A stretch of 64,000 bases of DNA from Thomasclavelia spiroformis DSM 1552 (GTDB lineage Bacteria; Bacillota_I; Bacilli_A; Erysipelotrichales; Coprobacillaceae): positions 2,119,596 through 2,183,595 of the forward strand of contig NZ_CP102275.1 of assembly GCF_025149465.1 (NCBI RefSeq), read 5' to 3'. The translations under genes and the position numbers were made by a program. Below are positions 10,064-55,989 of this stretch, piece by piece. Under the pieces are notes generated by a model. It was not told the origin of the DNA, searched no databases, and saw only the letters and a program-made list of their open reading frames with translations. Numbering within the stretch: the stretch's first letter is position 1; every line of letters begins with the position of its first letter.

Positions 10064-10066
10064 AAA

Positions 10067-10140: not shown

Positions 10141-10181
10141 ATCTCCTTTTTAGCAGAGCCCTTAACGACTACTGCTCATGT

Positions 10182-11265: not shown

Positions 11266-11339
11266 TGGAGCGGGTGATGGGAATCGAACCCACGTAGTCA
11301 GCTTGGAAGGCTGAAGTTCTACCATTGAACTACACCCGC
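11266..11339 (-). tRNA. tRNA-Gly (anticodon TCC), copy 2
   Basis: 74-nt cloverleaf with CCA, identical over its length to 10067-10140. Last gene of the Val-Thr-Tyr-Gln-Lys-Leu-Gly cluster. Confidence 0.96.
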
Positions 11340-11344
11340 AAGAA

Positions 11345-37937: not shown

Positions 37938-37986
37938 CAAAATTAAAGAGGCTGTAACGCATTAAAATAATGTGTTTGACCAAAAA

Positions 37987-39370
37987 ATTGAATAGGGGCT
38001 AAGAATTAAAATCTTTCGCCCCTTTCACAACACCGTGCGTAGGGTTCCCTACACGGCGTTTCATAAGTTTATAGAGTTGTAATAATCTAGTGCACTTATA
38101 AATCCGTATATTTTTAATACTTCATTTGTAAGTGTCCTTTTTAGTATGAAGCTATTGGCGATGTGCCAGTAGCTTTTTCTTGTGTTTGCCCATTCCCATG
38201 CCTTACTTTTATTAATACCTAGTTTTTGTAAATTTCTATACCTTGTTCTTACTAACTTCCATCTTTTCCAATATATCATTCGTATTCTTCTTCTCATCCA
38301 TGAGTCTATTTCCCTTAGATGTTTACTCATATTCGCTATCCTATAGTAATTCACCCAACCTGTAATGTATTCTTTTAACTCTTTAGCTAATTCCTTACTT
38401 GATATTGGTCGGTTCCTTTTGGTGATTTCCTTTATTCTCTTTTTCATCTTTTCTTACTGCTTGATGGGCATTTCTTCTTGGTCGGAACCCATAACTATTG
38501 TCACTGAATTGGGGTTCAAATATTGGTGTCAGTACCTGTACTATCGCCTGTTGTATGACCCTATCCGTCACTGTTGGAATTCCTAACTCTCTTTTCTTTC
38601 CGTTATCTTTTGGTATTTCTACTCTTTTAACGGCTTGTGGACTATAATGTCCCTCCATGATAAGTTTCTTTAGATAAGACCAGTGTTGTGCGAAATGCGT
38701 ACGAACTTCTGCGACTTGCATTTTATCTACACCACCACTTCCCTTATTACTCATAACCCTTTGGATTGCCTTTTCTATATTGGCATCCTCCATAATTGTT
38801 TCAAGTAACTTCTCATGTACTACAAATCTATTGGTGTTCTTCGTATGTGATATCTCTTGTTTTGATGTAGGATACACTTCTCCACTATTGTCGTATTCCG
38901 TACTATCTTCATAGAGTAAGCCTAATGATAGTTGACAGTATCCTATTTTATCTTGAGTATCTTTCATTTCCAGTTCACCTCCTTATGTTCGGTCCTTCGC
39001 TAGATAACCATTACAGTTATCATCATCACTACTATGACCTCGGCTGACTTCCTAGGACAAACGTTTCCACCATGATTACATTTTCATCATGTTCCTAGGA
39101 CCTCCCACGGTAAGACATAACACTTTCATCCTATGTACCCACTATCTTTACACTGCTTATTCCGTCGTACTATTGGACTTCGATTTGTTTAGCAATCTCA
39201 TCCGATAAGCTTCTGCCTAAAATAGTTCGTATTCCTTGGGTCAGGACTTTGCCTCCAACTTCCTCCCGTTCACACCTTACGATGGATACCTTGTCTTCGG
39301 CTAGTGGTTGGTAGTACGAAACCCCCACAGTGGACTTTCACCACCTAGTCTTATGTCATGCGTGGCACAC
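37987..39370 (-). mobile_element. Group II intron copy 1, bacterial class C, internally deleted
   Basis: Same element as 54064-55959 but 512 bp shorter. Minus-strand 5' end GTGTGCCACGC (39370 downward), domain V at 38029-38060 with the CGC catalytic triad, 3' end ...CCCCTATTCAAT. All parts compared look identical to copy 2. The deletion joins CTTTTCTT to CTTTTCTT (near 38450), an 8-bp repeat present at both edges in copy 2. The ribozyme (domains I-III, V, VI) appears intact, so it might still splice or be mobilised by the protein from copy 2. Confidence 0.85.
38061..38967 (-). pseudogene. Deleted reverse transcriptase/maturase of intron copy 1
   Basis: The first 174 residues (ending NAHQAVRK) are in one frame; the last part (from MKKRIKEITKR to the end) is in another. 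The missing 512 bp is not a multiple of three and removes RT motifs including VPQGGPLSPLLSN and the YADD catalytic site. A truncated 190-residue N-terminal product with a foreign tail is the most that could be made. Inactive. Confidence 0.92.
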
Positions 39371-39373
39371 TAA

Positions 39374-39415
39374 AAAAATAGCACTTAAACTCAGATGAGT
39401 ATAAGTGCTATTTTT
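39374..39415. terminator. Hairpin upstream of the transposase; insertion target of intron copy 1
   Basis: 14-bp perfect stem (AAAAATAGCACTTA / TAAGTGCTATTTTT) with a 14-nt loop. On the minus strand it is followed by TTA and then the intron 5' end, the arrangement class C introns need. It may protect the transposase from outside transcription. Confidence 0.75.
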
Positions 39416-39429
39416 GGTATAATTAGATT

Positions 39430-41016
39430 ATGCAAAATATAAAAATAATAGAATCTAATTACCCGATTGACAATTCTTATTATAATACATTTCAATGTAA
39501 ACTTCCACTAGATTTTTTTACAGTTGTTCCTGTAGATGATCCGGTGACATCTTTCGTAGAAATTATGAAAGGAATTAACACTTCAAAGTATTTTAACTGC
39601 CCCCATAGAGGCAACAGGGGCTACGACCCTAATATGATGTTACAGGTTACATTGTTTGCATTTATAAACGGTCAATATGAATTAAGAAAAATGGAAGAAT
39701 TATGCAGATATGATATCCGATATATGTGGCTGGCTAATGATGAAACTCCTTCTTTCATGGCTTTTCAAAGATTTATATCAGAAAAATTATCGATGTCTAT
39801 CGAAGATATTTTTTATGATGTTGTTAAAAGAATCATTGAATTAGATGATGTTGATATTTCTAAACTTTATATTGATGGAACTAAGATAGAAGCCAATGCA
39901 AGGAAAAACAGTTTTGTTTGGAAAAAAGCTATTCTAGGCTATCAGGAAAAAGCATTTCTTAAAGTGACAGATCTGATCATAAGATTAAATGATGATCTTA
40001 ACTTTAAATATGATATAAAATCAAGATATTCTGCTGATGATACAGGACTGATTGCAGAACAGTTAATGGAACTGATGATAAGACAAAATATAGAAATAGT
40101 ATACGGAAAAGGCAAAAGACGTTCCTTATTACAGAAATATTATGATGAATTTCTTGAAATCTATATAAAATTAATGAGATATGAAGAATCATTGAACATA
40201 TGTGGCGACAGGAACAGTTATTCAAAGACTGATCATGATGCTACCATGATGAACATGAAGTATGACTATTATAATCATACAGGTATATTTAAACCGGGAT
40301 ATAACCTGCAAATAGGTGTAAGTGATGAATATATTATGCATATGGATATATTTTCAAATCCTGCTGATACAAAAACATATATACCGTTTATGAAAAAATA
40401 TAAAGAAAGATACGGCTGTTATCCAAAATGGCCAATAGGCGATGCCGGATATGGAAGCTATGATAATTTGCTTTTTAATGTCATAAACGGGATGGAACTG
40501 GGATTAAAGTATAATTATTATGCAAAAAAGAATACAAAGGAATTTAAAAAGAAAATATATAATCAGATGAACTGGGAATATGATGAAAAGGGATTTAAAG
40601 TCTGCCCACAGGGACATTCATTTAATATTGAAAAAGAAGAAAGATGGAACACAGCAGGTGAATATCTACAAATCAGCAGAGTATTCGAATGTGGTAAATG
40701 TCATGACTGTAAAGTAAAAGAAAAATGCACAAAGGCAAAGGAGCAAAGAAAAATACAGATAAATTATGCCTTAAATGAAATGCAGGAAAAAGTAGATGAA
40801 AATCTTGGAACCGAAGAAGGAAAAGAGATGAAAAAGCAAAGAAGTATACAGTCAGAAGGGACATTTGGAATAATAAAGCAGAATATGGATTATGTCCGAT
40901 TAAAAAGAAGAGGAAACATAAATGTAAAAACAGAACTGCTGTTAATAGGGATTGCCTATAATATACGCAAATACCACAATAAAAAGATGAAAAAGAAGGA
41001 AATATCAATTTCCTAA
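39430..41016 (+). CDS. IS1182 family DDE transposase
   Basis: 528 residues, apparently full length. N-terminal YFNCPHRGNRGYDPNMMLQV and the helix-turn-helix-like DIRYMWLANDETPSFMAFQRF are family marks. DDE residues: Asp in LYIDGTKIEAN, Asp in PIGDAGYGSYDN, Glu in QSEGTFGIIKQ. A zinc-ribbon-like C..C cluster (FECGKCHDCKVKEKC) lies before the last catalytic segment. Codon use (more GAT/ATA, fewer TTA-rich runs) looks a little different from neighbours, as expected for a mobile gene. Confidence 0.92.
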   Translation: MQNIKIIESNYPIDNSYYNTFQCKLPLDFFTVVPVDDPVTSFVEIMKGINTSKYFNCPHRGNRGYDPNMMLQVTLFAFINGQYELRKMEELCRYDIRYMWLANDETPSFMAFQRFISEKLSMSIEDIFYDVVKRIIELDDVDISKLYIDGTKIEANARKNSFVWKKAILGYQEKAFLKVTDLIIRLNDDLNFKYDIKSRYSADDTGLIAEQLMELMIRQNIEIVYGKGKRRSLLQKYYDEFLEIYIKLMRYEESLNICGDRNSYSKTDHDATMMNMKYDYYNHTGIFKPGYNLQIGVSDEYIMHMDIFSNPADTKTYIPFMKKYKERYGCYPKWPIGDAGYGSYDNLLFNVINGMELGLKYNYYAKKNTKEFKKKIYNQMNWEYDEKGFKVCPQGHSFNIEKEERWNTAGEYLQISRVFECGKCHDCKVKEKCTKAKEQRKIQINYALNEMQEKVDENLGTEEGKEMKKQRSIQSEGTFGIIKQNMDYVRLKRRGNINVKTELLLIGIAYNIRKYHNKKMKKKEISIS

Positions 41017-41068
41017 AAAGCTAAATAAAAACATGTAAAAAGCACATGATGTTTTTATAGTACCAAAA

Positions 41069-41092
41069 AAGTTATCTAAATATGGATAACTT
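41069..41092 (+). terminator. Terminator after the transposase
   Basis: 8-bp stem (AAGTTATC / GATAACTT), followed by TGTTTTTTATC on the plus strand. Confidence 0.7.
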
Positions 41093-41128
41093 TGTTTTTT
41101 ATCTAAATATACTGTATCAAGCAAAAAA

Positions 41129-41141
41129 AGGCGTAACGCCT
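41129..41141 (-). terminator. Possible terminator of the V-ATPase operon
   Basis: Minus-strand AGGCG-TTA-CGCCT followed by seven T in a row (TTTTTTTGC). A larger fold pairing CTGTAACG with CGTTACG is also possible. Confidence 0.5.
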
Positions 41142-41177
41142 AAAGATTAAAAATCCTTATTCGTTACAGCCCCTTTA

Positions 41178-41786
41178 TTATCTCTTCATTTCTTTAATAA
41201 CTTTTTGGCGAGTAAATTCTTCTCTTTCTTTTTCTTCTAAAGCTTCACTTATAACTTTAATTGTTGATTCAAAACGTGGAATCGAAATATTTTTTAGAGC
41301 ATTTGCACGTTTTTGTGTTTTTCTAATTGTATTAGCTAAACGATAAACACTATTTTCAACTTCAGCTAATAACACAGTTAATTGTTTTACTCGATAAAAA
41401 CAATTATAAGCATAATCAACTTTAGAATTAGAACGTTCAATATCATAAGTCATTTTCAATGGTTGTTGATTATAAGAAATCTTTGGAATTTCAACACCCA
41501 TAACACTACGATACGCAATCGATATTCCATAATCTTCAGGTGTACTATTTACAATCGACGAAATTAATCCCATTGAAATATTTGCTTCTTGCAAAGCATC
41601 ATATGCTTCTTGATAAGAAGATGTAATTTGATCACGAATAATCTTAACATCATCTAATAAAGTCATCATTTCTTTTATTAAAACATTTCGTTTTTGATCC
41701 ATTAGATTATATCCAAGATTAGCTAATTGCAATGATTTTTTCATTGCAATTAAATTACCCTTTGTCGGAACTACCTTCAAAGCCAT
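41178..41786 (-). CDS. ntpD: V-type ATPase subunit D (central stalk)
   Basis: 202 residues, long N- and C-terminal helices forming the rotor coiled coil. N-terminal VPTKGNLIAMKKSLQLANLGYNLMDQKRNVL is the subunit D signature. It follows the B gene with a 2-nt gap and its own AAGGTG. Last gene of the operon. Confidence 0.95.
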   Translation of the reverse strand: MALKVVPTKGNLIAMKKSLQLANLGYNLMDQKRNVLIKEMMTLLDDVKIIRDQITSSYQEAYDALQEANISMGLISSIVNSTPEDYGISIAYRSVMGVEIPKISYNQQPLKMTYDIERSNSKVDYAYNCFYRVKQLTVLLAEVENSVYRLANTIRKTQKRANALKNISIPRFESTIKVISEALEEKEREEFTRQKVIKEMKR

Positions 41787-41788
41787 AA

Positions 41789-43228
41789 TTATTCACCTTC
41801 TTGTAATTCTTTAATAATCTTTTTTTCTTTTATATTAAAACGTTCAATTGCTTTTTCATGATTATAATATTGATCCAATAATGCATTATCCAATCGATCC
41901 AATGCTTCACGAGGTAAGACAGAAACTAAATCCCATCCTAAATCTAAAGTTTCCTCAATACTACGATTAGCATCAAAACCCTGGTTAATAAAATATTCTT
42001 CAAACAATTTACCAAATGTTACATATTTTTTATCCATATCAGACAATTCATCTTCACCAATAACCGAAGTTAATGAACGTACATCTTGAACATGGGCATA
42101 ACATGCAAACAATTGATTAGCAATATCTTGATGATCTTTTCTCGTATATCCTTCTCCAATTCCATCTTTCATTAAACGACTTAATGAAGGTAAAACCCCA
42201 ACTGGTGGATAAATCCCTGCTGAATTTAAATCAACATCTAATGTAATTTGTCCTTCTGTAATATAACCAGTTAAATCAGGAACCGGATGTGTAATATCAT
42301 TATTAGGCATTGTTAAAATTGGAATTTGTGTTACAGAACCTTCTGCATCTTTAATAATCCCTGCTCTTTCATATAATGAAGCTAAATCTGAATATAAATA
42401 CCCTGGATATCCTTTACGACCAGGAATTTCTCCTTTACTTGATGAGAACTCACGTAATGCTTCACAATAAGAAGTAACATCACTATAAATAACCAATACA
42501 TGCATATTTTGTTTAAATGCTAAATATTCTGCTGCAGTTAATGCACAACGTGGTGTTAAAATACGTTCAATAATTGGATCATTTGATAGATTCAAGAACA
42601 TAACAACACGTTCCATAACTCCCGCTTCTTTAAAGCTACGTTTAAAATATTCTGCAACATCGTTTGTAACACCCATAGCTGCAAAGACAACAGCAAAACC
42701 TTTTCCTGATTCATCTGCGATTTTTGCTTGTTTTACAATTTGAACTGCTAAACGATCATGAGGTAATCCTGATACCGAAAAAATTGGCAACTTTTGACCA
42801 CGAATTAATGTAGTCAAACAATCAATTGAAGAAATTCCTGTATTAATATAGTTACGTGGATATACACGAGAAACTGGATTCAAAGGTAATCCATTAATAT
42901 CCATTTCTTCTTCAGCATAAACTTCACCTAATCCATCAATTGGTCTACCAGCGCCAGAGAATATTCTTCCTAATATTTCTCTAGAAACAGGTAATTCCAT
43001 TGGTTTACCTAACAATTTCGTTTTTGTATTTTCAAGTGATAGTCCGTTGGTCCCTTCAAAAACTTGAACTACGACTTTTTCACCTTCAATTTGAACAATT
43101 CGTCCTGCACGAGTTGTTCCATCATTTATTTGTATTTCAACCATTTCATCGTATGAAGCACCCTTAACGTGGTCTAAAACGACTAATGGTCCATTAATTT
43201 CATTTAATCCTACATATTGTAGAGACAT
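41789..43228 (-). CDS. ntpB: V-type ATPase subunit B (regulatory, non-catalytic nucleotide-binding)
   Basis: 479 residues. [16 protein letters not shown] occupies the place of the Walker A loop, which is degenerate as expected for B subunits; [48 protein letters not shown] and [14 protein letters not shown] are family blocks. AGGAGG 9 nt upstream selects the ATG at 43228. Alternates with A in the A3B3 head. Confidence 0.96.
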
Positions 43229-43241
43229 AACCAATAACCTC

Positions 43242-44993
43242 CTACGCTACAGATTTAATTGCTTCATCGATATCATGATAATATGTATCCAACTTATCAA
43301 TATTATCATTAGGGATATCATATTTCATTTTAATAACTTGATCAAAAATACCCGTATCCACAATTCTTCTTACAACTTTACCTTGATTAACCGCTTCTTT
43401 ACAACGCTTATTTAAATATAAAATAACTTCCATCATCTTCAATTGTTTTTCCATTGGGACATATGTATCATCTTTATGGAAAGCATTTTGTTGTAAATAA
43501 CCAACTCGAACAACTTTTGCAATTTCAATAATCAACTTTTGATCTTCTGGTAATACATCAGGTCCCATCAATTGAACAATTTCATTTAATTTAGCTTCCT
43601 CAGCTAAAATATAAGCTATTTCTTGACGATCACTTACAAATTTAGGACCTACATTTTTGGTATACCATTTTTCAAGATCATAAACATAATCACTATAACT
43701 TTGTGTCCAGTTTATTGCAAAATAATGACGTGCATAAGCTAACGCTTTGTCTAATGCCCAGAAACAACGAACAAAACGTTTAGTATTTTGAGTAACTGGT
43801 TCAGAAAAATCGGCTCCTTGAGGCGATACCGCACCAATAATTGATACAGAACCTTCCTTACCATTTAATGTTTTCATATATCCTGCACGTTCATAGAATT
43901 GTGATAAACGTGATGGTAAATATGCTGGGAACCCTTCTTCAGCTGGCATTTCTTCTAAACGTCCTGAAATTTCACGTAATGCTTCAGCCCATCTTGAAGT
44001 TGAATCTGCCATAATTGCAACATGATAACCCATATCGCGGTAATATTCAGCTAAAGTAATCCCTGTATAAATACTAGCTTCACGAGCAGCAACAGGCATA
44101 TTTGAAGTATTTGCAATCAATACTGTTCTATCAGTTAATGGTTTACCACTTTTAGGGTCAATCAATTCACTAAATTCTTCTAGAACTTGTGTCATCTCAT
44201 TTCCACGTTCACCACAACCAACATAAACAATAATATCAGCGTCACACCATTTTGCAATTTGATGTTGAGTCATTGTTTTTCCAGTACCAAATCCACCAGG
44301 AATAGCTGCAGTTCCCCCTTTAGCAATTGGGAATAATGTATCTATAACCCTTTGCCCTGTTACTAAAGGAATTGAAATTGGTAAACGATTAAATACTGGT
44401 CGCGCTTGCTTAATTGGCCATTTTTGACATAAAGTACAATCCATGATTTTTCCATTTTCATCTTCAATTTTCATAATAACATCATTGATTGTATACTCAC
44501 CATCGCTAACAACATCTACAACTTTACCACTAATTAAAGGACTAACCATGCATTTATGAACAATCAAGTCAGTTTCTGGTGTAGTGGCATAAATGTCACC
44601 ACCCTTGACTTCATCGCCTACTTTAACACACATAGTTACATTCCATTTTTTGTTTATATCTAAAGAATCAACATTACTTCCAGCATGAATAAATGCTCCT
44701 GATTCTTTTTCAAGTGCTTTTAAAGGACGTTCAATCCCATCAAAAATATTTCTTAAGATTCCTGGGCCTAACGTTGCACAAATTGGTGATCCGGTTGAAA
44801 CAACAGGTTCACCTGGTTTAAGACCTGTAGTAGTTTCATAAACTTGGATAGTAGTAAATTCTTTAGAAATAGAAATTACTTCCCCCATTAATGAAGCATT
44901 ACCTACATATACCATTTCCAACATAGAAAAAGATACTGTATCTTTTACTTTTACAACAGGTCCATTAATTGAATAAATCACATTATTGCTCAT
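43242..44993 (-). CDS. ntpA: V-type ATPase catalytic subunit A
   Basis: 583 residues. Walker [14 protein letters not shown], the non-homologous insert region (about 110-190, [15 protein letters not shown].. to ..[10 protein letters not shown]) that separates V/A-type A from F-type beta, [18 protein letters not shown], and [20 protein letters not shown]. Site of ATP hydrolysis. Starts behind GGGGG; 7-nt gap to B. Confidence 0.97.
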
Positions 44994-45008
44994 ATATTAA
45001 CCCCCTGT

Positions 45009-45605
45009 TTATTTGATCATTAATCCTGATGTTTTATAAAACCATTCTTTTTGGTTTTCTAAAGCAGTATCTAATGATTCATCTACTACTACATTAGTTG
45101 CTTTATTTTCAATAATGAAACCACCTATTTTAATTTCATCACTTACTTCAACTGTTAAATCAATTCCATAAGCTTTAACTAAATCATCAGCATATTTTAT
45201 ATCATTTTGTCTAAGTTTAAGAATTGAATCACTCATTTGATATAGACTACTAATCTTTTCCATATGTTTAATAAGATATGTTTTATAGTCATTGCTATTT
45301 ACAAATTCATTTAATCTGTTTTTAGCTTCTTTAAATATCTTTGCAACATAAGCTTCTCTTGTCTCAACTAACTTCTTAGTCTTCTCTTCTTGAGATAAAG
45401 AAGCTTCTACACTAGCATTAGAAGATATCTCTACTAACTCTTTAGCTAACAAAGCATCAGCATCTTTTTTTGCTTCCGCTTTAATTTGTTGATAAGCTTC
45501 TGCTTCAAGTTCTTTTGCTTCAGCCAAAATTTTTTCTTCTTCTAAACTAGCTAATCTTTCAATCTCTTCTTTCATATAAAGAAATACTTGTTCTTTCTTT
45601 TCCAT
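45009..45605 (-). CDS. ntpE: V-type ATPase subunit E (peripheral stalk)
   Basis: 198 residues: N-terminal coiled coil rich in Lys/Glu/Ala (about 1-110) and a C-terminal globular part ending IGGFIIENKATNVVVDESLDTALENQ, the usual end of subunit E. Pairs with the G/H-type subunit as a peripheral stator. AAAGGGA before the ATG; 15-nt gap to A. Confidence 0.9.
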   Translation of the reverse strand: MEKKEQVFLYMKEEIERLASLEEEKILAEAKELEAEAYQQIKAEAKKDADALLAKELVEISSNASVEASLSQEEKTKKLVETREAYVAKIFKEAKNRLNEFVNSNDYKTYLIKHMEKISSLYQMSDSILKLRQNDIKYADDLVKAYGIDLTVEVSDEIKIGGFIIENKATNVVVDESLDTALENQKEWFYKTSGLMIK

Positions 45606-45617
45606 AGCATTCCCTTT

Positions 45618-45926
45618 CTACAACTTAACACCTATTGCTTCAGAAACATATTTATCAATAGTTTCACCAATTTTAGATTCACCATGACGATCTGGTATCT
45701 CTACAAGCAATGGTTTTTGTTGTTTTAACTTAATTTCTGAAATAATATCAGGCGCAAGTTCAATTAGTTTAGTAGTAATTAAAATAATTCCAATCGAATC
45801 ATCTTTCAATTTAGTTTCTAATAACTCTAAAAACTCTCTTCTTTTATGAACTACTTCTCCTTCAATTCCTACTAACCTAAGACCGATTTGAGTATCAACA
45901 TTATCACTTATACAATAAAATCGCAT
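45618..45926 (-). CDS. V-type ATPase subunit F (NtpG-type)
   Basis: 102 residues, alpha/beta fold, binds the D rotor. Starts MRFYCISDNVDTQIGLRLVGIEG, the standard opening of the family, so the ATG at 45926 is taken instead of the GTG at 45935; the ribosome binding site is poor for both, suggesting translational coupling to the K gene. PLLVEIPDRHG near the end is conserved. Confidence 0.92.
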   Translation of the reverse strand: MRFYCISDNVDTQIGLRLVGIEGEVVHKRREFLELLETKLKDDSIGIILITTKLIELAPDIISEIKLKQQKPLLVEIPDRHGESKIGETIDKYVSEAIGVKL

Positions 45927-45945
45927 AACGATCACATACTTTCAA

Positions 45946-46377
45946 TTAAATTTTATTAATAATTAAGATTGAAATTAATAACCCATAAATTGCTACCCCT
46001 TCACCTAAGGCAACAAAAATCAAAGATTTACCAAAGTTCTTTTCATTTTCAGAAAATGCTCCAATTGCAGCTGGTGCAGCAGCAGCAACAGCAATCCCTG
46101 CTCCTAAAGCTGATAAACCAGTAGCTAATGCAGCAGCTAAAAATCCTAACCCTTGAGCAATAGTCCCTGTAATTACAGCTGTTTCTTGGGCATGCACACC
46201 GTTAGTAGCTGCAGCTAAATATAGTGCTAAACCAACTGCCCCAACAAATCCAGCAACATGTGTTGCTAATCTAATTTTTGCACTCTTAACACTTACATTT
46301 CCTTTAAATACTTTAACTAATGGTAATGATAATAAAATAACTAATAATGCTGGTAAAATAAATTCTAAAACTGTCAT
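45946..46377 (-). CDS. ntpK: V-type ATPase proteolipid subunit K
   Basis: 143 residues, four transmembrane helices (about 4-20, 37-58, 72-108, 115-140) as two fused hairpins. The ion-binding glutamate is in helix 4 (VALGEGVAIYGLL); helix 2 has no carboxylate, as in Enterococcus NtpK. Whether the coupling ion is Na+ or H+ cannot be decided by eye. Forms the rotor ring. AGGAGG before the ATG. Confidence 0.95.
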   Translation of the reverse strand: MTVLEFILPALLVILLSLPLVKVFKGNVSVKSAKIRLATHVAGFVGAVGLALYLAAATNGVHAQETAVITGTIAQGLGFLAAALATGLSALGAGIAVAAAAPAAIGAFSENEKNFGKSLIFVALGEGVAIYGLLISILIINKI

Positions 46378-46397
46378 AACGACTTCCTCCTAAACTT

Positions 46398-48290
46398 TTA
46401 TTCTTCTTTTATACTTTTAAACGGTATTCCGTTTCCTTCATAATATCTACTAAACATTTCGTAGAATTCTAAACGTAATACTTGGATTCCAACAATCAAT
46501 CCTTCCAAGCACATTACAAATACGTTACCAAAGATAATAACAATTATCTCACCTACTCCACCAACCATTTCTGCAAGAGTATAAACCACAAGCATCATTC
46601 CAGCATGTGATAAAACAAATCCACCTACTCTTAAAAATGACATAGTATTCGTAATGAATGATAACACTACTTCAAATAACTCAAAGAATCCTTCAACAAA
46701 AAATGCACCGAATCCATTTGGAAACATTTTTTCATCTTCTTCAAATTTTCTAATCAATGGCTCTTTTAGGAAAATGAAAAATAATGGTAAAAAAATCAAA
46801 CAAATAACATATACCATATTTACAAAATCCAATCCTAAAAACATATTAATCACTAAACCTAAAATAGAAATATAGAAAAGCAATCCACAAATTCCATTTT
46901 GGCTCAAAATAGCTTCACCTATCTGTTTTTTCTTAAAATTCAAAAAAACATTAAACGTCATAGAAATTACGATTAAAACAATTCCCAAACAAATTGCTGC
47001 AATCAATAATGTCATTGTATTATCTGGGGACATAGCATTAAACATAGGAATCAAAATTTCTTCATTTCCAAATACCGAACCAAAAACAATCCCAAACAAT
47101 GTACTAGATATTCCTAAACGAACACCTACCGCGCCTAATTGTAAGCCAAACTTTTTATAAGCAATTAAACCAACTAAGGATAAAATTACCCCTTGGCCTA
47201 CATCACCAAACATAATCCCAAATAATAAAGTATACGATAATGAAACTAATAAAGTTGGATCAGCATCATTATATTTAGGTACTCCATACATCTCCACAAA
47301 CATTCTAAATGGTTTTGAAAACCAATTATTTTTAAGCAATGTCGGTGGTGATAAACGTACATCACTATTAGCTGGCTTAATGTCAACCATCACTCCATCA
47401 AGTGCTTCAAAATCATCTTTAAATTTCTTTACATTTTTAGTTGGAACAAACCCATTAACCGAAAGTTTATCACCAATTACAACTACATACTTTTGCATCA
47501 CATACACATCATTTAAATGTTTAGCAACAGTATAAATTTTATTTAATTCATCACGTTCATTTTCAAAAATTTTAGCAATCCGTGCATTTAATTTATTACT
47601 ATGTTCCCTAGCCACATTTGCTTCTTCTTCAATTTCATTAATTGCTAGTTCTGGTGAACCATGAACAAAATACGGAATATGAATTCTTTCAAAATAAAGT
47701 GATGAAAAAATATTGTCAACTTCTGGTGCATCACTAGGAGTTGTAATATACATACACCATGTATAATGATTATCATGTTCAAACGCTTTAAATACAAATG
47801 GTAGTGATTCATAGTAATCTAACTTTGAAATATTATTTACTGGTAATTTACCAAATCTTATTTGAAGATATTTACAACTAAATAAATCATCAAAATCAAC
47901 ATCAATATCTGCAACATGACGCAATTGAATAACCGCTTCTTGATTTTCAATAATCATAGTATCTAACTGCTTTATTACAGCATGTATTCGTTCAACATCT
48001 AATAACAAATCATCTAAATATTCTTTTACTTTTAATATATTAATTTGATTATTTTCTACTTCAACTTCTTCTAACTTAAAGTTATATTTATTTGAAGCAT
48101 CATTTAAACGAACAAGAATTTCTTCATAAAGATTATCTTGATTATAGACACTAAGTCCCGTTACACTGTCAATAAACTTAGATGCCAATTCGGGATGAAA
48201 ATCATCATGACTAAAAAGTTTTAACAAAACTTCATTATAACGATATTTATCAAAATTAATACTAACTAAGTTTAATCTTGAAATAGCCAT
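46398..48290 (-). CDS. ntpI: V-type ATPase subunit I (a-type stator), full length
   Basis: 630 residues: soluble N-terminal half (about 1-320) with long antiparallel helices, then about seven to eight transmembrane helices. YTLLFGIMFGDVGQGVILSLVGL and the ion-channel segment ITNTMSFLRVGGFVLSHAGMM with the essential arginine are present. Provides the half-channels next to the K ring. 20-nt gap to K; a truncated paralogue lies directly upstream. Confidence 0.95.
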   Translation of the reverse strand: MAISRLNLVSINFDKYRYNEVLLKLFSHDDFHPELASKFIDSVTGLSVYNQDNLYEEILVRLNDASNKYNFKLEEVEVENNQINILKVKEYLDDLLLDVERIHAVIKQLDTMIIENQEAVIQLRHVADIDVDFDDLFSCKYLQIRFGKLPVNNISKLDYYESLPFVFKAFEHDNHYTWCMYITTPSDAPEVDNIFSSLYFERIHIPYFVHGSPELAINEIEEEANVAREHSNKLNARIAKIFENERDELNKIYTVAKHLNDVYVMQKYVVVIGDKLSVNGFVPTKNVKKFKDDFEALDGVMVDIKPANSDVRLSPPTLLKNNWFSKPFRMFVEMYGVPKYNDADPTLLVSLSYTLLFGIMFGDVGQGVILSLVGLIAYKKFGLQLGAVGVRLGISSTLFGIVFGSVFGNEEILIPMFNAMSPDNTMTLLIAAICLGIVLIVISMTFNVFLNFKKKQIGEAILSQNGICGLLFYISILGLVINMFLGLDFVNMVYVICLIFLPLFFIFLKEPLIRKFEEDEKMFPNGFGAFFVEGFFELFEVVLSFITNTMSFLRVGGFVLSHAGMMLVVYTLAEMVGGVGEIIVIIFGNVFVMCLEGLIVGIQVLRLEFYEMFSRYYEGNGIPFKSIKEE

Positions 48291-48301
48291 TTTATCCCCC
48301 C

Positions 48302-49663
48302 TTATATATCAACAGATTTACGTAATATCTTCTTTACAATGATTAACACTACAATTAAAATAACCCACAAACAAACACCAAACATAAAAGTATGCACAAT
48401 ATGTAATGGTAATGTAAGTAATGGCTCGTATAATTCAATTCGGTAAAATACAGTTCCGTAAAATAAACCACCAATAAATATTGCTGTTCCTACACGTTTT
48501 AAAATATTCCCAAAATTATTAGGCTTTTTAATTGTAAATAATAACCCTAATAAAATTATTAATATTCCAACCCCAATGTCTCCTATACATACTGCTCCAA
48601 TTAACATTGAAATTATTGCAACTAATACCGTTGGATCAAAAGTATCACCAATAGTAGTACTCAATATATTTTCAAATGGTTGAAATAACGAATTATTTTT
48701 TATTAATACCGGTGCAACAATATTTTTATTTTCATAAATATTAACCGGTAATTCAATTACTCTAACACTATCTATGTCACTAAATTTAGATTCTATTTCT
48801 TTAATATCAAAACTACTAAATGCATATATCGCTGCTTTTTGTGAAAAATCAACAACATAACGACATTTGTCATATAATCTTTTTAAATTATATAATCTTG
48901 TAAATACTTCTAATAGTTTTTCACTATATTCATTTCTTACATCTTCAATTTTTGTGTCCATCTTCTTAATATACTGTTCCATTGCTACTGATTCTTCATT
49001 TAATTCATCAATTGCTTCACAAACTTTCCCATGAGCAAATTCTGGAATATTAATTTGTTCGAAAGACATTGAAGAAAAAGCATTATCAATTTCAGAAATA
49101 TTATTTGTAAGACCTGCATAAACAATCCATACATACTGTTTAGAACGATTTAACTCTACAAAAATAAATTCATAATCGCGATAATATTGAATCTTATTAA
49201 ATTCTGCTAGTGGTATTTTACCAAAACGACATGTAATATACTTAGTATTTTGAACATCATCGACACTAATTTTAGAATCTTTAAGATTCTTTAATAAAAC
49301 AATTGCTTCATCATTCTCATGTTTTTCTTTAATAATATCTTCACGAACATTGATAATATTATCAATTTTTTCATTAATTTCATCTATTAACTTATTTACC
49401 TCAAATAAATTAATTTCCTCAAACTCATTATCTTTAACTCGAGTATCTAAACTTAACCGATTAAAAATATGATAGATATTATCAAGCGGTTCATTATACG
49501 GATTTACATCATCCATTACTGATACTCCTTTAACATTATGAGCTATCTTTTTTGAATCTTGTGGAAACATTTCTTCTTGATATTCAGTCATCTTGATCAA
49601 CATTTTTATTAAATCTTTTTGTTCAAAGGAAATATTAAAGAAATGTGTTTTAATAATAGCCAC
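48302..49663 (-). CDS. Truncated V-type ATPase subunit I paralogue
   Basis: 453 residues with the same opening as NtpI (soluble domain DSKKIAHNVKGVSVMDD.., YITCRFGKIPLAEFNKIQYY, INIPEFAHGKVCEAIDELNEE parallel YLQIRFGKLPVNNISKLDYY and IHIPYFVHGSPELAINEIEEE), but only about four transmembrane helices (about 345-450). It keeps a GDIGVG motif like GDVGQG of NtpI, yet ends before the channel-arginine region. GTG start, with AGGAGGG 8 nt upstream. A complete small gene rather than a broken one: no frameshift and good spacing. Could be an assembly or stator-tethering variant. Confidence 0.85.
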   Translation of the reverse strand: MAIIKTHFFNISFEQKDLIKMLIKMTEYQEEMFPQDSKKIAHNVKGVSVMDDVNPYNEPLDNIYHIFNRLSLDTRVKDNEFEEINLFEVNKLIDEINEKIDNIINVREDIIKEKHENDEAIVLLKNLKDSKISVDDVQNTKYITCRFGKIPLAEFNKIQYYRDYEFIFVELNRSKQYVWIVYAGLTNNISEIDNAFSSMSFEQINIPEFAHGKVCEAIDELNEESVAMEQYIKKMDTKIEDVRNEYSEKLLEVFTRLYNLKRLYDKCRYVVDFSQKAAIYAFSSFDIKEIESKFSDIDSVRVIELPVNIYENKNIVAPVLIKNNSLFQPFENILSTTIGDTFDPTVLVAIISMLIGAVCIGDIGVGILIILLGLLFTIKKPNNFGNILKRVGTAIFIGGLFYGTVFYRIELYEPLLTLPLHIVHTFMFGVCLWVILIVVLIIVKKILRKSVDI

Positions 49664-49676
49664 TCAACAATCCCTC

Positions 49677-50708
49677 CTATGCAAAGATTAGCATCTCTTC
49701 AATACTTGATGCATCTCTTTTATATCGTATTCCTTCGATAATATGTTTCAAATTATCGATTTCTACTTTTTGTAGAATTGAATAGGTTAAATATACTAAT
49801 GGCGCATTACTTGAAAAGCGCATATATCGTTTAGCAATATTATATTTAATCTCTTCAACATAATATTCAATATAAGTATAGTCTTTATCTCCAATATATA
49901 ACTTATATTTAGAATTAGATAATAACTCTAATACTTCCTCACCACTACGTGCTTCAATTAATGAATCTAACATTGCTTTAGATATTCGACAATGTTCTAA
50001 ATATAAAGATTTTCTAATTGTTTCATTTGATTCTTTAAAATACTTTTTAAAACGATAAATTTTAGTAATATTAGCTAGTTCAATTGATGTAGATAAAATC
50101 TCCATCAACTCCTTTTGTTTACTACCCTTAAAATTACTTTTAATTGAATCAACATACATATCATAATATAAAGACTTTAATTGACGTTCCAATAAATTAA
50201 TATCTATTGGTGCCGTAAAATCAAAATTAGATAATATCTTATAATATCTAGTATTTTTTAGATACATAACTAAATCCTTATAATTACCAACATTTACCAA
50301 TCCATAAATATTAAAACTAATTTTACTCGCTAAATAATCAGGAATTTCTAAAGAAAAGCTCGCCTGATCTTTTTCTTTAATACTAACAACTTTATCAACA
50401 ATCAATTGAACCTCAATTCCAATAACCTCCTGGTTATAAAAATCCTGATTCTTTTTTGGTGCATATTTCATCAATCTAGCACAGCGCTCAAAATATTCTT
50501 TATTTAAAGCAGCTTCTAACTGTCGACGACGAACATTTCTAACATTGACGTCTTTTAATACATCACTATACTTTGTTTGCGATTTTAGATAAGTCACCAT
50601 CTCGCCAAGCGTTTGTTTTCTACACAAATCACTATAGCTTTCTTCATTAAGACGATATCCATACATCGCTTTTGCCTTTGCACATAGTGCATTTGACGAC
50701 AAAGCCAT
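49677..50708 (-). CDS. ntpC: V-type ATPase subunit C (d-type, rotor socket)
   Basis: 343 residues, all-helical, with NALCAKAKAMYGYRL at the start and repeated Leu/Lys/Tyr-rich helices as in subunit C of V/A-type ATPases, which links the central stalk to the K ring. AAGGTG before the ATG. It is placed before the I genes rather than between E and F as in Enterococcus. Confidence 0.88.
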   Translation of the reverse strand: MALSSNALCAKAKAMYGYRLNEESYSDLCRKQTLGEMVTYLKSQTKYSDVLKDVNVRNVRRRQLEAALNKEYFERCARLMKYAPKKNQDFYNQEVIGIEVQLIVDKVVSIKEKDQASFSLEIPDYLASKISFNIYGLVNVGNYKDLVMYLKNTRYYKILSNFDFTAPIDINLLERQLKSLYYDMYVDSIKSNFKGSKQKELMEILSTSIELANITKIYRFKKYFKESNETIRKSLYLEHCRISKAMLDSLIEARSGEEVLELLSNSKYKLYIGDKDYTYIEYYVEEIKYNIAKRYMRFSSNAPLVYLTYSILQKVEIDNLKHIIEGIRYKRDASSIEEMLIFA

Positions 50709-50720
50709 ACATTCACCTTC

Positions 50721-51029
50721 TTACTTTAAACATCTTTCAACAATTTCATTTATCCATTTATCTTTATTTGAATTATAAAGATTTTCCAAGTTATTTAAAA
50801 CATTTTTAAATTCTTGGTGTTGTTGTTTTGCATTTTCTTGATTTTTATTTATCAATTCACTTTTATAATCTTCAATTTTTTGATTTTGTTCCAAAACAAA
50901 ACCATCATATATTTCTTTTCTCTTTTCATTCATATTAGTTTGAGCATCAAGTTTTTTAGCTTTTGCCTTTTCAACTCGTTCGACACATTTACGGTCAATC
51001 TCTACTAATCTTTGAATAACATCATCCAT
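50721..51029 (-). CDS. V-type ATPase peripheral-stalk subunit (G/H type, NtpF-like)
   Basis: 102 residues forming one long charged coiled coil rich in Lys, Glu, Gln and Asn (VERVEKAKAKKLDAQTN). First gene of the ATPase operon, where the ntpF/ahaH-type stalk subunit sits in other Firmicutes; partner of subunit E. AGGGGG 6 nt before the ATG. Confidence 0.82.
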   Translation of the reverse strand: MDDVIQRLVEIDRKCVERVEKAKAKKLDAQTNMNEKRKEIYDGFVLEQNQKIEDYKSELINKNQENAKQQHQEFKNVLNNLENLYNSNKDKWINEIVERCLK

Positions 51030-51053
51030 ACTATGCCCCCTTCGTCTGAGATA

Positions 51054-51081
51054 AGTATACTCCTATATTTTAAAAATGCAA
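51054..51081 (-). promoter_or_regulatory. Promoter of the V-ATPase operon
   Basis: Minus-strand TTGCAT (51076-51081), 16-bp spacer, TATACT (51054-51059), about 25 nt before the first ATG. Confidence 0.6.
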
Positions 51082-51376
51082 TGGTAATACTTCATCATTT
51101 TTTAAAATCTTGATTTTCTTGTAATTCCTAGAAACATATAAAGTTTACAAGATTTTAAAGTTATTTATATAGATATTATTACCATATTTAAATACTTTGT
51201 TTAAATTAGTTTGAAATATCAATAAAAATTCGTATTTTAACATTTATAAAACATAAAATCTAATCAGTCATTAGATACAGCCATAATACTCTTATTAACA
51301 ATTTTTAAACTTTTAATAAAACACAATTTTATTTAGATGTATTGTATCTATCCTATTTTAAATAAATGTAATTTAT
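51082..51376. other. AT-rich intergenic region upstream of the V-ATPase operon
   Basis: No gene or structured RNA recognised. It separates the operon promoter from the DUF2798 gene on the same strand. No convincing terminator hairpin was found for the DUF2798 gene. Confidence 0.5.
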
Positions 51377-51850
51377 TTAGTTTTTATTAGTTGTAAAATG
51401 TTTTATATACATTTTTTCTAACTGACGAATAGCAGCACCCCCATAAAAAATTTGCCAAGCTAAAGCCATTGGAAAATTTAATACCGTTGTTTCTAACCAC
51501 ACCGCTATAAACTCCATACCAGCATCTTTAAATAGTAACGTCGCTATAAAACTCATAATAGGACACATTAAACAAACAATCATTGTAGAAATAGTAATTT
51601 GAATACGATGTGAATCAGTATTTTTATCTAATCTTTTAAAAGCTAAATTAACTGCTATTCTTTCTACAAAACATAACTCTAAAATAATTGCTATAGGCCA
51701 CATGATCCATAATTCATGAAATGCCATCACAAAAACTGCATTAGTCATTCCTCCAATATTTAAAGAAATGTTATAGCAAATCATGGCATAAACCATAATA
51801 AATGCCATTGCAACTGTAAATAAAAAGTGATGTAATTTTGATTTTTCCAT
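51377..51850 (-). CDS. DUF2798 family membrane protein
   Basis: 157 residues with four transmembrane helices in two similar pairs (about 8-28, 44-64, 85-105, 120-142), each pair resembling a DUF2798 unit (helix, then NxPxAxxxQ/WQIFY-like ending). Function unknown. AGGAGG 7 nt before the ATG at 51850. Confidence 0.72.
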   Translation of the reverse strand: MEKSKLHHFLFTVAMAFIMVYAMICYNISLNIGGMTNAVFVMAFHELWIMWPIAIILELCFVERIAVNLAFKRLDKNTDSHRIQITISTMIVCLMCPIMSFIATLLFKDAGMEFIAVWLETTVLNFPMALAWQIFYGGAAIRQLEKMYIKHFTTNKN

Positions 51851-52270
51851 AAAACTTCCTCCTACTTTCATGTAAAATATGTGTGTTGTTCATAACCATG
51901 AGCTCACATACATGTACCGTTTCCAATTTTCACCACCATTTTTTACACAATTTATTAACGAGTCATAATTTATCATAAATATTTTTGTTATGTAAGAATT
52001 TTTTTATTAATTTAATCAATTATAAACTACGTCTTAAAAATATTTCTAATAAATTCAAAATAATATATTTTCACTTTTTATTACGATAACCTAATTTTTT
52101 CGTTAGTTCTTTAAATTATCAATTAATTACCTTTAATAACTCTATGTTGAATTATAATAATATTTTTATTATCAATATTAAGATAAAAAATATTTATTTA
52201 CTTAAATTTTAAATCAAATGGATATTGTATTATAAAATTTAATCTATATATTATTTTTTCTTTAATATGA
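51851..52270. other. AT-rich intergenic region
   Basis: Divergent upstream region of the DUF2798 and pepP genes. Apart from the pepP promoter nothing is recognised; no riboswitch or small gene could be supported. Confidence 0.5.
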
Positions 52271-52299
52271 TTGAGACAAATAATCAATTATGCTAAAGT
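52271..52299 (+). promoter_or_regulatory. Promoter of the Xaa-Pro aminopeptidase gene
   Basis: TTGAGA (52271-52276), 17-bp spacer, TAAAGT (52294-52299), about 21 nt before the ATG. Confidence 0.5.
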
Positions 52300-52320
52300 A
52301 ATACCAATGAGGTGACAAAA

Positions 52321-54072
52321 ATGATAAAAGAAAATATAAAAAAATTACAAAGTTTAATGAAAGAAAATGAAATCGATATTTATATCATTCCTACAAGTGA
52401 TTTTCACCAAAGTGAATACGTTGGTGAATATTTTAAAGGACGTAAATTTTTATCAGGATTTACAGGTTCAGCGGGAACTTTAGTAGTAACTCTTGATAAA
52501 GCTTATTTATGGACTGATGGGCGCTATTTTATTCAAGCTCAACAACAATTAGAAGGCAGCGATATTATTTTAATGAAAATGGCAATGCCTAATGTTCCTA
52601 CAATCAAAGAGTTTCTTGATCAAAACACTGATAAAACTGTTGGTTTTGATGGACGTGTGATGTCATATAAAGATGTTTGTCAGTATAAAAATAAATTAAT
52701 TACTAATATAGATTTAGTTGATGAAATTTGGAGCGATCGCCCAAGTATATCTCATCAACCTGCTTATTTATATGATGAAAAGTATTGTGGAGAATCACGA
52801 GCTTCTAAATTAAAAAGAATTCGTGAAGCAATGAATGATTGTGATTATCATATCATTACTAGCTTAGATGATATTGCCTGGTTATTTAATATTCGTGGTA
52901 ATGATGTTGCATGTAATCCAGTAGTATTAGCTTATTCATTAATCAGTAAAAATGATGCTACTTTATATGTTCTTGATGGTGTAATTGACAAAAAAATGCA
53001 AGATATCTTAAAAGAAGATGGAATTATTGTTAAAGCATATAATGATATTTATGAAGATGTAAAATCACTACAAGGTAAAGTTTTACTAGATGATTTACTT
53101 GTCAATTATCAAATCTGCAGTAATCTAAATTGTAAAATTGTAAAAATGACTAACCCAACGCAATACTTTAAAGCAATTAAAAATGAAACTGAAATTAACG
53201 CTACTAAAAACGCTCATTTAAAAGATGGTGTGGCAATGACTAAATTTATGTATTGGTTAAAAACTAATGTTGGAAAAATTGATTTAGACGAAGTCATCAT
53301 TAGTGATAAACTAGAAGAATTCAGAAAAGAACAAGCTGATTTTTATGATTTAAGTTTTGACACAATTTGCGGATATAAAGAAAATGCTGCTTTAATGCAT
53401 TATAAAGCTCTACCAGAAAAATGCGCTAAAGTTACTAATAAAGGAATGTTACTAATTGATTCTGGGGGACAATATATCGATGGAACTATTGATACAACAA
53501 GAACTTTTGTTCTAGGTAAAATTAGCGATATTGAAAGACGTGACTTTACTATTGCTTTAAAAGCTCTATTACGTTTACAGGCCGCACACTTTGTTGCAGG
53601 AACAACTGGTCCAAACTTAGATATTTTAGCTCGCGGAATTGTTTATGAATATAATTTAGATTATCGTTGTGGTACTGGCCATGGTGTAGGACATTTCTTA
53701 AATGTTCATGAAGGTCCAAATGGCTTTAGACCTAAAGACCGTCCTGGAAGTGCACCAATGTGTGCTTTTGAACCAGGAATGATCACTACTAATGAACCTG
53801 GTATTTATATTGAAGGTAGTCATGGCGTGCGTCATGAAAATGAAATGTTATGCGTTGAAATAACAAATAATGAATATGGTCAATTCTTAAAATTTGAACC
53901 AATTACATATGTACCTTTTGATTTAGATGGTTTAGATCTTAAATTATTATCTAATCATGAAATAAAACAAATTAATGAATATCAACAATTTGTATATGAT
54001 AAAATTTCTTCATATTTAACTAATGAAGAAAAAACTTGGCTACAAGATAACTTATTAATTAAAATTGAATAG
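52321..54072 (+). CDS. pepP: Xaa-Pro aminopeptidase (M24B), three-domain form
   Basis: 583 residues, longer than the roughly 360-440 of ordinary bacterial PepQ/PepP and like the three-domain APP1 type: two creatinase N-like domains (about 5-135 and 155-290) and a pita-bread catalytic domain (about 300-520). Metal ligands: the Asp pair in LIDSGGQYIDGTIDTTRTF, His in GTGHGVGHFLNVHEGP, Glu in TTNEPGIYIEG and RHENEML. GAGGTG selects the ATG at 52321. The last codons and the stop lie inside group II intron copy 2; before insertion the frame would have ended in TAA two codons earlier. Confidence 0.92.
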   Translation: MIKENIKKLQSLMKENEIDIYIIPTSDFHQSEYVGEYFKGRKFLSGFTGSAGTLVVTLDKAYLWTDGRYFIQAQQQLEGSDIILMKMAMPNVPTIKEFLDQNTDKTVGFDGRVMSYKDVCQYKNKLITNIDLVDEIWSDRPSISHQPAYLYDEKYCGESRASKLKRIREAMNDCDYHIITSLDDIAWLFNIRGNDVACNPVVLAYSLISKNDATLYVLDGVIDKKMQDILKEDGIIVKAYNDIYEDVKSLQGKVLLDDLLVNYQICSNLNCKIVKMTNPTQYFKAIKNETEINATKNAHLKDGVAMTKFMYWLKTNVGKIDLDEVIISDKLEEFRKEQADFYDLSFDTICGYKENAALMHYKALPEKCAKVTNKGMLLIDSGGQYIDGTIDTTRTFVLGKISDIERRDFTIALKALLRLQAAHFVAGTTGPNLDILARGIVYEYNLDYRCGTGHGVGHFLNVHEGPNGFRPKDRPGSAPMCAFEPGMITTNEPGIYIEGSHGVRHENEMLCVEITNNEYGQFLKFEPITYVPFDLDGLDLKLLSNHEIKQINEYQQFVYDKISSYLTNEEKTWLQDNLLIKIE

Positions 54073-55959
54073 GGGCTAAGAATTAAAATCTTTCGCCCCT
54101 TTCACAACACCGTGCGTAGGGTTCCCTACACGGCGTTTCATAAGTTTATAGAGTTGTAATAATCTAGTGCACTTATAAATCCGTATATTTTTAATACTTC
54201 ATTTGTAAGTGTCCTTTTTAGTATGAAGCTATTGGCGATGTGCCAGTAGCTTTTTCTTGTGTTTGCCCATTCCCATGCCTTACTTTTATTAATACCTAGT
54301 TTTTGTAAATTTCTATACCTTGTTCTTACTAACTTCCATCTTTTCCAATATATCATTCGTATTCTTCTTCTCATCCATGAGTCTATTTCCCTTAGATGTT
54401 TACTCATATTCGCTATCCTATAGTAATTCACCCAACCTGTAATGTATTCTTTTAACTCTTTAGCTAATTCCTTACTTGATATTGGTCGGTTCCTTTTGGT
54501 GATTTCCTTTATTCTCTTTTTCATCTTTTCTTTAGATTTCTTGTGAACAGTGATTCGTACATTACCACTCTTCTCTATATAAAATCCAAAGCCCAAGAAT
54601 TTTATATCAGTAATATAGGCTACCTTTGTCTTCTCTTGGTTCACTTTTACAAATAATTTCTCTTCTAAATATCTTGTCACTGTTTCTTTGACTCTCATTG
54701 CACTTCTTTTACTTTTGAATAGTATGACACAGTCATCTGCGTACCTTACAAATCGATTTCCTCTTCTTTCCATTTCTTTATCAAATTCATTAAGATATAT
54801 ATTTGATAATAATGGGCTGAGTGGCCCACCTTGGGGTACTCCTTTTGTAGTTTCTTCAAACTTATGTTTTACTATGACTCCTGCATTGAGATATTTATGT
54901 ATGAGTGATATAACTCTTCCGTCTTTAATAGTTTGTGACAATATCTGTATAAGTCTTGAATGGTTGACTGTATCAAAGTACTTCTCTAAATCTAGGTCTA
55001 CTGTATATCGATATCCTTCATTGGCGTATTCGACTACTTTTCTTACTGCTTGATGGGCATTTCTTCTTGGTCGGAACCCATAACTATTGTCACTGAATTG
55101 GGGTTCAAATATTGGTGTCAGTACCTGTACTATCGCCTGTTGTATGACCCTATCCGTCACTGTTGGAATTCCTAACTCTCTTTTCTTTCCGTTATCTTTT
55201 GGTATTTCTACTCTTTTAACGGCTTGTGGACTATAATGTCCCTCCATGATAAGTTTCTTTAGATAAGACCAGTGTTGTGCGAAATGCGTACGAACTTCTG
55301 CGACTTGCATTTTATCTACACCACCACTTCCCTTATTACTCATAACCCTTTGGATTGCCTTTTCTATATTGGCATCCTCCATAATTGTTTCAAGTAACTT
55401 CTCATGTACTACAAATCTATTGGTGTTCTTCGTATGTGATATCTCTTGTTTTGATGTAGGATACACTTCTCCACTATTGTCGTATTCCGTACTATCTTCA
55501 TAGAGTAAGCCTAATGATAGTTGACAGTATCCTATTTTATCTTGAGTATCTTTCATTTCCAGTTCACCTCCTTATGTTCGGTCCTTCGCTAGATAACCAT
55601 TACAGTTATCATCATCACTACTATGACCTCGGCTGACTTCCTAGGACAAACGTTTCCACCATGATTACATTTTCATCATGTTCCTAGGACCTCCCACGGT
55701 AAGACATAACACTTTCATCCTATGTACCCACTATCTTTACACTGCTTATTCCGTCGTACTATTGGACTTCGATTTGTTTAGCAATCTCATCCGATAAGCT
55801 TCTGCCTAAAATAGTTCGTATTCCTTGGGTCAGGACTTTGCCTCCAACTTCCTCCCGTTCACACCTTACGATGGATACCTTGTCTTCGGCTAGTGGTTGG
55901 TAGTACGAAACCCCCACAGTGGACTTTCACCACCTAGTCTTATGTCATGCGTGGCACAC
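54064..55959 (-). mobile_element. Group II intron copy 2, bacterial class C, full length
   Basis: Minus-strand 5' end GTGTGCCACGC at 55959; 5' RNA domains about 55570-55959; maturase gene; domain V at 54106-54137 with a CGC triad (AACGCCGTG) instead of the usual AGC; domain VI hairpin GGGGC..GCCCC and 3' end TATTCAAT at about 54064. It lies 4 nt behind the T-run of the nrdG terminator, the typical class C target. The 3' boundary is set to give an AT end and to restore a TAA stop for pepP; an uncertainty of a few bases remains. Confidence 0.9.
54138..55556 (-). CDS. ltrA: Group II intron reverse transcriptase/maturase
   Basis: 472 residues, intact. RT motifs: KRELGIPTVTDRVIQQAI, NSYGFRPRRNAHQAV, YTVDLDLEKYFDTVNH, GVPQGGPLSPLLSNIYL, RYADDCVIL (YADD site) and NQEKTKVAYI. 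The C-terminal maturase (GIIM) domain has ITGWVNYYRIA, RRRIRMIYWKRWK and KAWEWANTRKSYW; there is no HNH endonuclease, as in class C elements. AAGGAGGTG precedes the ATG. The stop codon lies directly at the domain V edge. Confidence 0.96.
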   Translation of the reverse strand: MKDTQDKIGYCQLSLGLLYEDSTEYDNSGEVYPTSKQEISHTKNTNRFVVHEKLLETIMEDANIEKAIQRVMSNKGSGGVDKMQVAEVRTHFAQHWSYLKKLIMEGHYSPQAVKRVEIPKDNGKKRELGIPTVTDRVIQQAIVQVLTPIFEPQFSDNSYGFRPRRNAHQAVRKVVEYANEGYRYTVDLDLEKYFDTVNHSRLIQILSQTIKDGRVISLIHKYLNAGVIVKHKFEETTKGVPQGGPLSPLLSNIYLNEFDKEMERRGNRFVRYADDCVILFKSKRSAMRVKETVTRYLEEKLFVKVNQEKTKVAYITDIKFLGFGFYIEKSGNVRITVHKKSKEKMKKRIKEITKRNRPISSKELAKELKEYITGWVNYYRIANMSKHLREIDSWMRRRIRMIYWKRWKLVRTRYRNLQKLGINKSKAWEWANTRKSYWHIANSFILKRTLTNEVLKIYGFISALDYYNSINL

Positions 55960-55964
55960 TAACA

Positions 55965-55989
55965 AAAAAGGAAGCTGTGCTTCCTTTTT
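55965..55989 (-). terminator. Terminator of nrdDG and target of intron copy 2
   Basis: Stem AAAGGAAGC / GCTTCCTTT, 3-nt loop, followed by TTTTTGTTA on the minus strand and then the intron 5' end at 55959. Confidence 0.85.

Follow-up and report, generated by a model that had tools for sequence, protein, structure and literature searches.

Class C (group IIC) introns were reportedly recognised behind intrinsic terminators by Robart et al. in 2007, and the group II introns of Thermosynechococcus elongatus are said to occupy homing-type sites rather than terminators. In the relevant parts of two published accounts, class C introns are described as inserting at terminator hairpins, lacking an endonuclease domain and favouring one strand (PMC4424553, PMC8919778). 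The passages on T. elongatus report 28 group II intron copies, which make up about 1.3% of that genome (PMC2882425). All of the following have been published before: bursts of class C introns at terminators in Firmicutes (PMC8919778), intron families as large as this and an intron interrupted by an insertion sequence (IS) (PMC2882425), introns that lie within IS elements (PMC4496777) and the recombination hazards of introns (PMC3522654).

In Thomasclavelia spiroformis DSM 1552 two direct copies of a group II intron, here called A and B, lie on either side of a V-type ATPase operon within the window (the whole 64,000-nucleotide stretch of DNA that was analysed). The intron family shares with the terminator-borne class C introns, as covered in the relevant sections of PMC4424553 and PMC8919778, the terminator targets, the lack of an endonuclease domain, the strand bias and the high copy number in Firmicutes; against those sections we see no essential difference, and the present genome is a new multi-copy example. 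The pertinent part of PMC2882425 shows a similar copy number in T. elongatus, internal ORF deletions and one IS-interrupted intron; there, the ORF-deleted form has reached 17 copies and the copies of the family are 85-100% alike, whereas here a single deleted copy is found and the copies are nearly identical. Copy A resembles RmInt1 of Sinorhizobium meliloti in being an intron nested inside an IS element. According to the section of PMC4496777 concerned, ISRm2011-2 is the natural target of RmInt1, whereas in the present genome one of five full IS1182 copies has been struck, at a hairpin. The arrangement as a whole is very probably the outcome of an ordinary recent expansion of a class C group II intron, with the bracketing of the V-ATPase operon as a by-product of copy number.

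Two copies of one class C intron

The features of the two copies are as follows.

37987..39370, minus strand: class C group II intron, copy A, 1384 bp, lacking 512 bp of its interior (identity to copy B, Rfam D1-D4 models, junctions)
38395..38967, minus strand: reverse transcriptase (RT) frame of copy A, truncated, 190 aa, frameshifted at the deletion (open reading frame and comparison with copy B)
38448..38455, minus strand: 8-bp repeat AAGAAAAG at the deletion junction of copy A (exact matching, base-by-base comparison)
54064..55959, minus strand: intron copy B, full length, 1896 bp (identity, junctions, Rfam domain 5/6 model)
54064..54138, minus strand: domains 5 and 6 of copy B (RF00029, 41.3 bits, gathering 40; fold z -5.76)
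54138..55556, minus strand: intron-encoded reverse transcriptase/maturase, 472 aa (TIGR04416, 439.2 bits, cut-off 300; RVT_1 and GIIM)

A first-pass annotation had described two minus-strand copies that are alike except for one 512-bp deletion, and base-by-base comparison agrees: all 1384 common bases match (1384/1384). The match falls into exact blocks of 926 and 472 bp that overlap in copy A by the 8 bp AAGAAAAG, and because of the length of these blocks the identity cannot be due to chance. The 512 bp absent from copy A lie within intron positions 916-1435 of copy B and form the sole difference between the two. Their loss shifts the RT frame and takes away residues ~171-342, the YADD active site included. 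We infer that this part of the RT gene was lost after insertion, for which slippage between two 8-bp repeats would be the simplest route.

The intron limits, GTGTGCC ... CTATTCAAT, were obtained by comparing the junctions of all copies in the genome. All 25 of the 5' junctions start with GTGTG and all 23 of the 3' junctions finish with CTATTCAAT; the Rfam domain 5/6 model, moreover, stops exactly at 54064, the end of copy B. The outer positions 37987 and 55959, as given in the first-pass annotation, are thus true intron ends.

The group II ribozyme models all score above their gathering thresholds (RF02001, 119.6 bits, and RF01998, 37.0 bits, for D1-D4; RF00029 for D5/D6). On the 472-aa protein Pfam reports RVT_1 and GIIM only and no endonuclease domain, and 7uim and the GsI-IIC RT are the nearest solved structures. 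A hairpin stands directly upstream at 25/25 intron 5' ends, as judged from single folds of 50 nt each, taken without a shuffle control. The RT and maturase without a reported endonuclease domain, solved relatives that include the GsI-IIC RT, and terminator insertion together support the view, already taken in the first-pass annotation, that both copies are class C group II introns; the assignment uses these features and not an RT tree. Both copies lie directly 3' of a hairpin.

Insertion sites and the V-ATPase neighbourhood

The targets of the two copies and the genes between them are the following.

37947..41174, plus strand: IS1182-family element between atpD and brxF, with intron A in its leader, ends approximate (NF033551; four intron-free full copies elsewhere)
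39371..39421, minus strand: approximate extent of the IS1182 leader hairpin that is the 5' target of intron A (junction folding, empty-site comparison)
41178..51029, minus strand: V-type ATPase operon with D, B, A, E, F, K, I, a second I-like, C and a G-like gene
52312..54072, plus strand: pepP-type peptidase gene, with its last three codons (ATT GAA TAG) inside intron B
55960..55989, minus strand: approximate extent of the nrdG terminator hairpin that is the 5' target of intron B (junction folding, comparison with relatives)

Copy A is placed between the left end of the IS1182 element and its transposase gene. The transposase had been counted among the bracketed genes; the intron in fact lies inside the element, not beside it. 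Its insertion was precise and without target duplication. On the plus strand the empty site of copy A, GTTTGACCAAAAA/TAAAAAAATAGC, is exactly preserved and uninterrupted in 4/4 other full IS1182 copies of the genome. Copy B lies between the nrdG terminator and the end of the pepP-type gene, which is convergent with nrdG; for this copy a diverged empty site is present in a relative (G006), in which the nrdG hairpin and its T-run are uninterrupted and intron-free. At window positions 54064-54072 intron B supplies the pepP-type gene with its stop codon and two extra residues (IE). Read across the intron flanks, the frame would end LLIK-stop, as it does in G006; in another relative (G004) it reads LLIKN-stop (compared by eye).

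The order nrdD-nrdG-pepP-V-ATPase-brxF-(1028-aa gene) is kept in the genus. Each of the two outer junctions could be inspected in 7 of the 8 other same-genus genomes, with gaps of 108-1097 bp at nrdG-pepP and of 22-159 bp at atpD-brxF, the unseen ones being due to small contigs in G008 and to a stretch of G001 that ended inside atpB. Since all gaps are shorter than the intron, neither site holds an intron in these relatives. Subunit A is encoded in 42/43 family genomes, the present one included, and the single miss is a genome that is 87% complete. The DUF2798 gene is not constant, being found in G005 and G006 only, with 28-32% identity. Within the operon the subunits D, B, A, K, I, the second I-like and C were named by test, E and F by position only, and the G-like gene scores below the Pfam cut-off.

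Three observations on the surroundings may be added. Two tandem subunit-I-like genes (window 46398-49663; 630 and 453 aa) both recur in all 7 relatives whose sequence covered this section of the operon. The constant neighbour of the operon in the genus, at window 37506-37937, matches the BREX-3 BrxF model (80.6 bits, cut-off 50). Two identical tRNA-Gly genes (window 10066-10141 and 11265-11340) lie 1199 bp apart in a tRNA cluster. Proteins similar to the F1 alpha and beta subunits are also encoded in the genome (L206 and L192, named from size and similarity alone).

Two direct copies that flank a block of genes resemble a composite element, and the pair could have arisen by segmental duplication or could form the ends of such an element carrying the operon. 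We consider this extremely improbable, since each copy has its own unrelated upstream hairpin and an unrelated 3' flank, the site of copy A is uninterrupted in the four other IS1182 copies, and the gene block occupies its ancestral place in the relatives. The independent target hairpins, the empty site and the ancestral gene order likewise speak against a composite transposable element that moves with its cargo.

It is also very improbable, if a little less so, that the assembler copied or misplaced a single intron. Identical repeats are hard to place with short reads, and the matter was judged from the assembly alone; however, the assembly is a single contig and 100% complete, the two copies differ in length, their flanks match the ancestral gene order and the nested IS1182 site is exact.

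A recent genome-wide intron family

The pair is real, as the first-pass annotation had it, but it is not a special pair: A and B are two of a family of 25. A pattern search of the 2,528,470-bp contig located 25 intron 5' ends (24 exact, and one with a mismatch at 111170) and 23 3' ends (22 exact). The copy at 111170 is older, being only 87-95% identical to the recent introns. Among the 24 recent copies, 15 are uninterrupted and full-length; the others are copy A, five that retain both ends and carry an insertion of an IS3-family element, and three 5' fragments, to which one separate 3' fragment may be added. Over 42,765 aligned bases, a total that includes the 1,896 of the query copy itself, the recent copies show no more than 5 mismatches and 3 gap bases, which supports the very recent divergence proposed for A and B. 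An A to G mismatch at intron position 474 is common to three copies, and another mismatch lies at the edge of an IS. Together the introns account for ~1.7-1.9% of the genome. Nine of the 24 recent copies are damaged, six of these with an IS3-family element in or against the intron.

Orientation follows the replichore in 23/25 introns, which point away from coordinate 0 on their own half of the chromosome; the GC skew is positive in 9/9 fetched stretches below 1.13 Mb and negative in 7/7 stretches and the window above 1.39 Mb. When 25 copies were placed at random, 98.7% of trials gave at least one adjacent pair within 16.6 kb, with a mean of 3.65 such pairs against 4 in the genome. For direct pairs alone, with orientation biased as in the genome, the share of trials was 97% and the mean 3.09, against 2 observed. 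Some close direct pair is therefore expected from copy number alone, and the bracket around the V-ATPase operon needs no special reason.

A class C intron of 37% G+C appears to have spread recently, by reverse splicing and reverse transcription and mostly in one orientation per replichore, to about 24 terminator-like hairpins in a genome of 29% G+C. Copy B would have inserted behind the nrdG terminator, and copy A into an IS1182 element already located between atpD and brxF, just after the hairpin in its leader. The intron probably came from outside, but no close donor was found in the genome collection, where the best RT relatives are 57% identical over the full length and 61% over a partial match. 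The best RT relatives in viral contigs reach 55%, those in 801 plasmid records stay below 60%, and phages likewise gave no close relative; all these collections may lack the record of the window itself and those very close to it. Since the older, diverged copy at 111170 and relics are found in the genome itself and in the genus, a resident ancestor is possible instead.

One intron relative of 578 bp, without an RT gene and behind a strong hairpin, was seen in a same-genus genome (L031; G004:C4:30838-31415), with 90% and 84% identity to the intron at its two ends. Elsewhere in the present genome, a 5' and a 3' intron part lie 30 kb apart in the same orientation (L064/L065; 1039220-1040402 and 1070718-1071240) and represent either one split copy or two remnants; the 5' part adjoins a second IS3-family element and restriction-type genes.

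Recombination between copies

According to the first-pass annotation, recombination between A and B would remove about 16.6 kb, with the transposase, the V-ATPase operon, the DUF2798 gene and pepP. Such an event is possible in principle and would take out 16.1-16.6 kb and the genes listed, but its product was not seen: at the V-ATPase locus no deletion junction is present in the same-genus genomes in which the nrdG-pepP (7/8) and atpD-brxF (7/8) junctions were seen. These relatives, one genome per species, have no introns at either site and are thus silent on stability with introns present.

That the direct pair makes the region deletion-prone, by recombining at an appreciable rate, is in our view quite unlikely. 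The direct orientation and the perfect identity over the 926- and 472-bp blocks speak for it, as do the statement on ectopic recombination involving group II introns in the part of PMC3522654 concerned and the one likely exon-shuffling event between two introns given in the T. elongatus sections of PMC2882425. Since subunit A is so widely kept in the family, losers of the operon would probably be purged.

Gene order around the other copies offers a wider view. Intron-flanking protein segments were placed in G006, and 12 pairs also in nine genus genomes, with a cut-off of 8 kb. In G006 9/14 informative junctions are kept (A, B, L002, L006, L007, L013, L017/27, L018/26 with a weak 36% match, and L059/28) and five are broken (L008, L009, L010, L012 and L015, of which L009 and L015 rest on genes with paralogues); 10/24 sites are uninformative there, one of which (L004) is kept in G001. 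Thirteen control sites gave 7 kept, 2 not kept and 4 uninformative, hence 7/9, and are few and not independent (5 come from the window and 7 from the stretches at 755-881 kb). The difference runs in the direction of deletion-proneness but is not significant (Fisher P 0.66); as a point estimate from a small sample with clustered controls it runs slightly against an ordinary expansion.

The broken sites themselves are of several kinds. In G001, G002 and G006 the flanks of L008 lie on opposite strands, 50-61 kb from each other, which marks the end of an inversion; among the intron ends of the genome there is no second intron at its expected far end. The L010 flanks are collinear but lie 7.5 kb (G002), 13.9 kb (G004), 14.1 kb (G007) and 17.8 kb (G006) apart, and since the genes between them are partly found nearby elsewhere in the present genome, L010 is not a simple deletion. 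L010, L012 and L015 lie in or near a reshuffled polysaccharide region. As to the introns as a putative cause of REARRANGEMENTS, no clear product of intron-intron recombination was found among the five broken sites.

In the same genome, a polysaccharide biosynthesis gene is present twice with 99.5% identity (L238, 768047-769904; L241, 868548-870405). Ahead of the second gene copy stand a LoaP-like antiterminator gene, which at 101 bits misses the cut-off of 125, and then an intron, directly after which the gene copy begins; the block around the first sits elsewhere in G002 and G006.

The proposal that an energy-coupling locus is structurally unstable here thus finds no backing: the operon is intact, its gene order is kept in the genus, subunit A is nearly constant in the family and a close pair is expected by chance.

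Introns as sites for an IS3-family element

One IS3-family element (NF033516) is present in 17 near-identical full copies, 9/17 of which lie in or directly against intron-derived sequence, which occupies less than 2% of the genome. Seven of these nine have intron on both sides, one (1113115) on one side, and one (111425) lies against the old copy. The seven include two that have a junction in common because of a tandem duplication (1560-1567 kb), so that the nine copies amount to eight events. Six of the other eight IS3 copies are in or at transposase, integrase or PDDEXK_2 (PD-(D/E)XK transposase-type) genes; of the last two, one interrupts a gene for a HAD-type hydrolase and the other touches a cupin gene.

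In the duplicated stretch (L059; 1560321-1567009) one intron was struck twice by the element, and the unit of IS3 and intron segment 457-1273 is present twice in tandem. At another site (L066; 1112643-1114435) the element cuts the intron at position 472, the rest of the intron is gone, and on its other side the element borders on a cas3-like gene in a CRISPR-Cas locus.

The excess of events in introns, 8/16, has P ~1e-10 against the whole genome and P ~5e-4 against an assumed non-coding share of 12%. Most of it is accounted for by selection against insertion into host genes. Beyond that, either the introns are simply neutral ground for the element or they act as a sink because it actively prefers other mobile elements; the latter we regard as rather unlikely. 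If true, such an active preference would be new, and a burst of terminator introns would shield the host genes from the next IS burst.

Conclusions

Near-identical direct repeats around an energy operon are, on their own, no evidence of instability when the repeat occurs 25 times in the genome. The T. spiroformis genome gives a clear picture of a burst of class C introns, with divergence near zero and yet 9/24 recent copies damaged, so that the order of decay is visible: IS insertion comes before point mutation. It thereby also allows one to examine whether introns are neutral ground for insertion sequences or are sought out by them.
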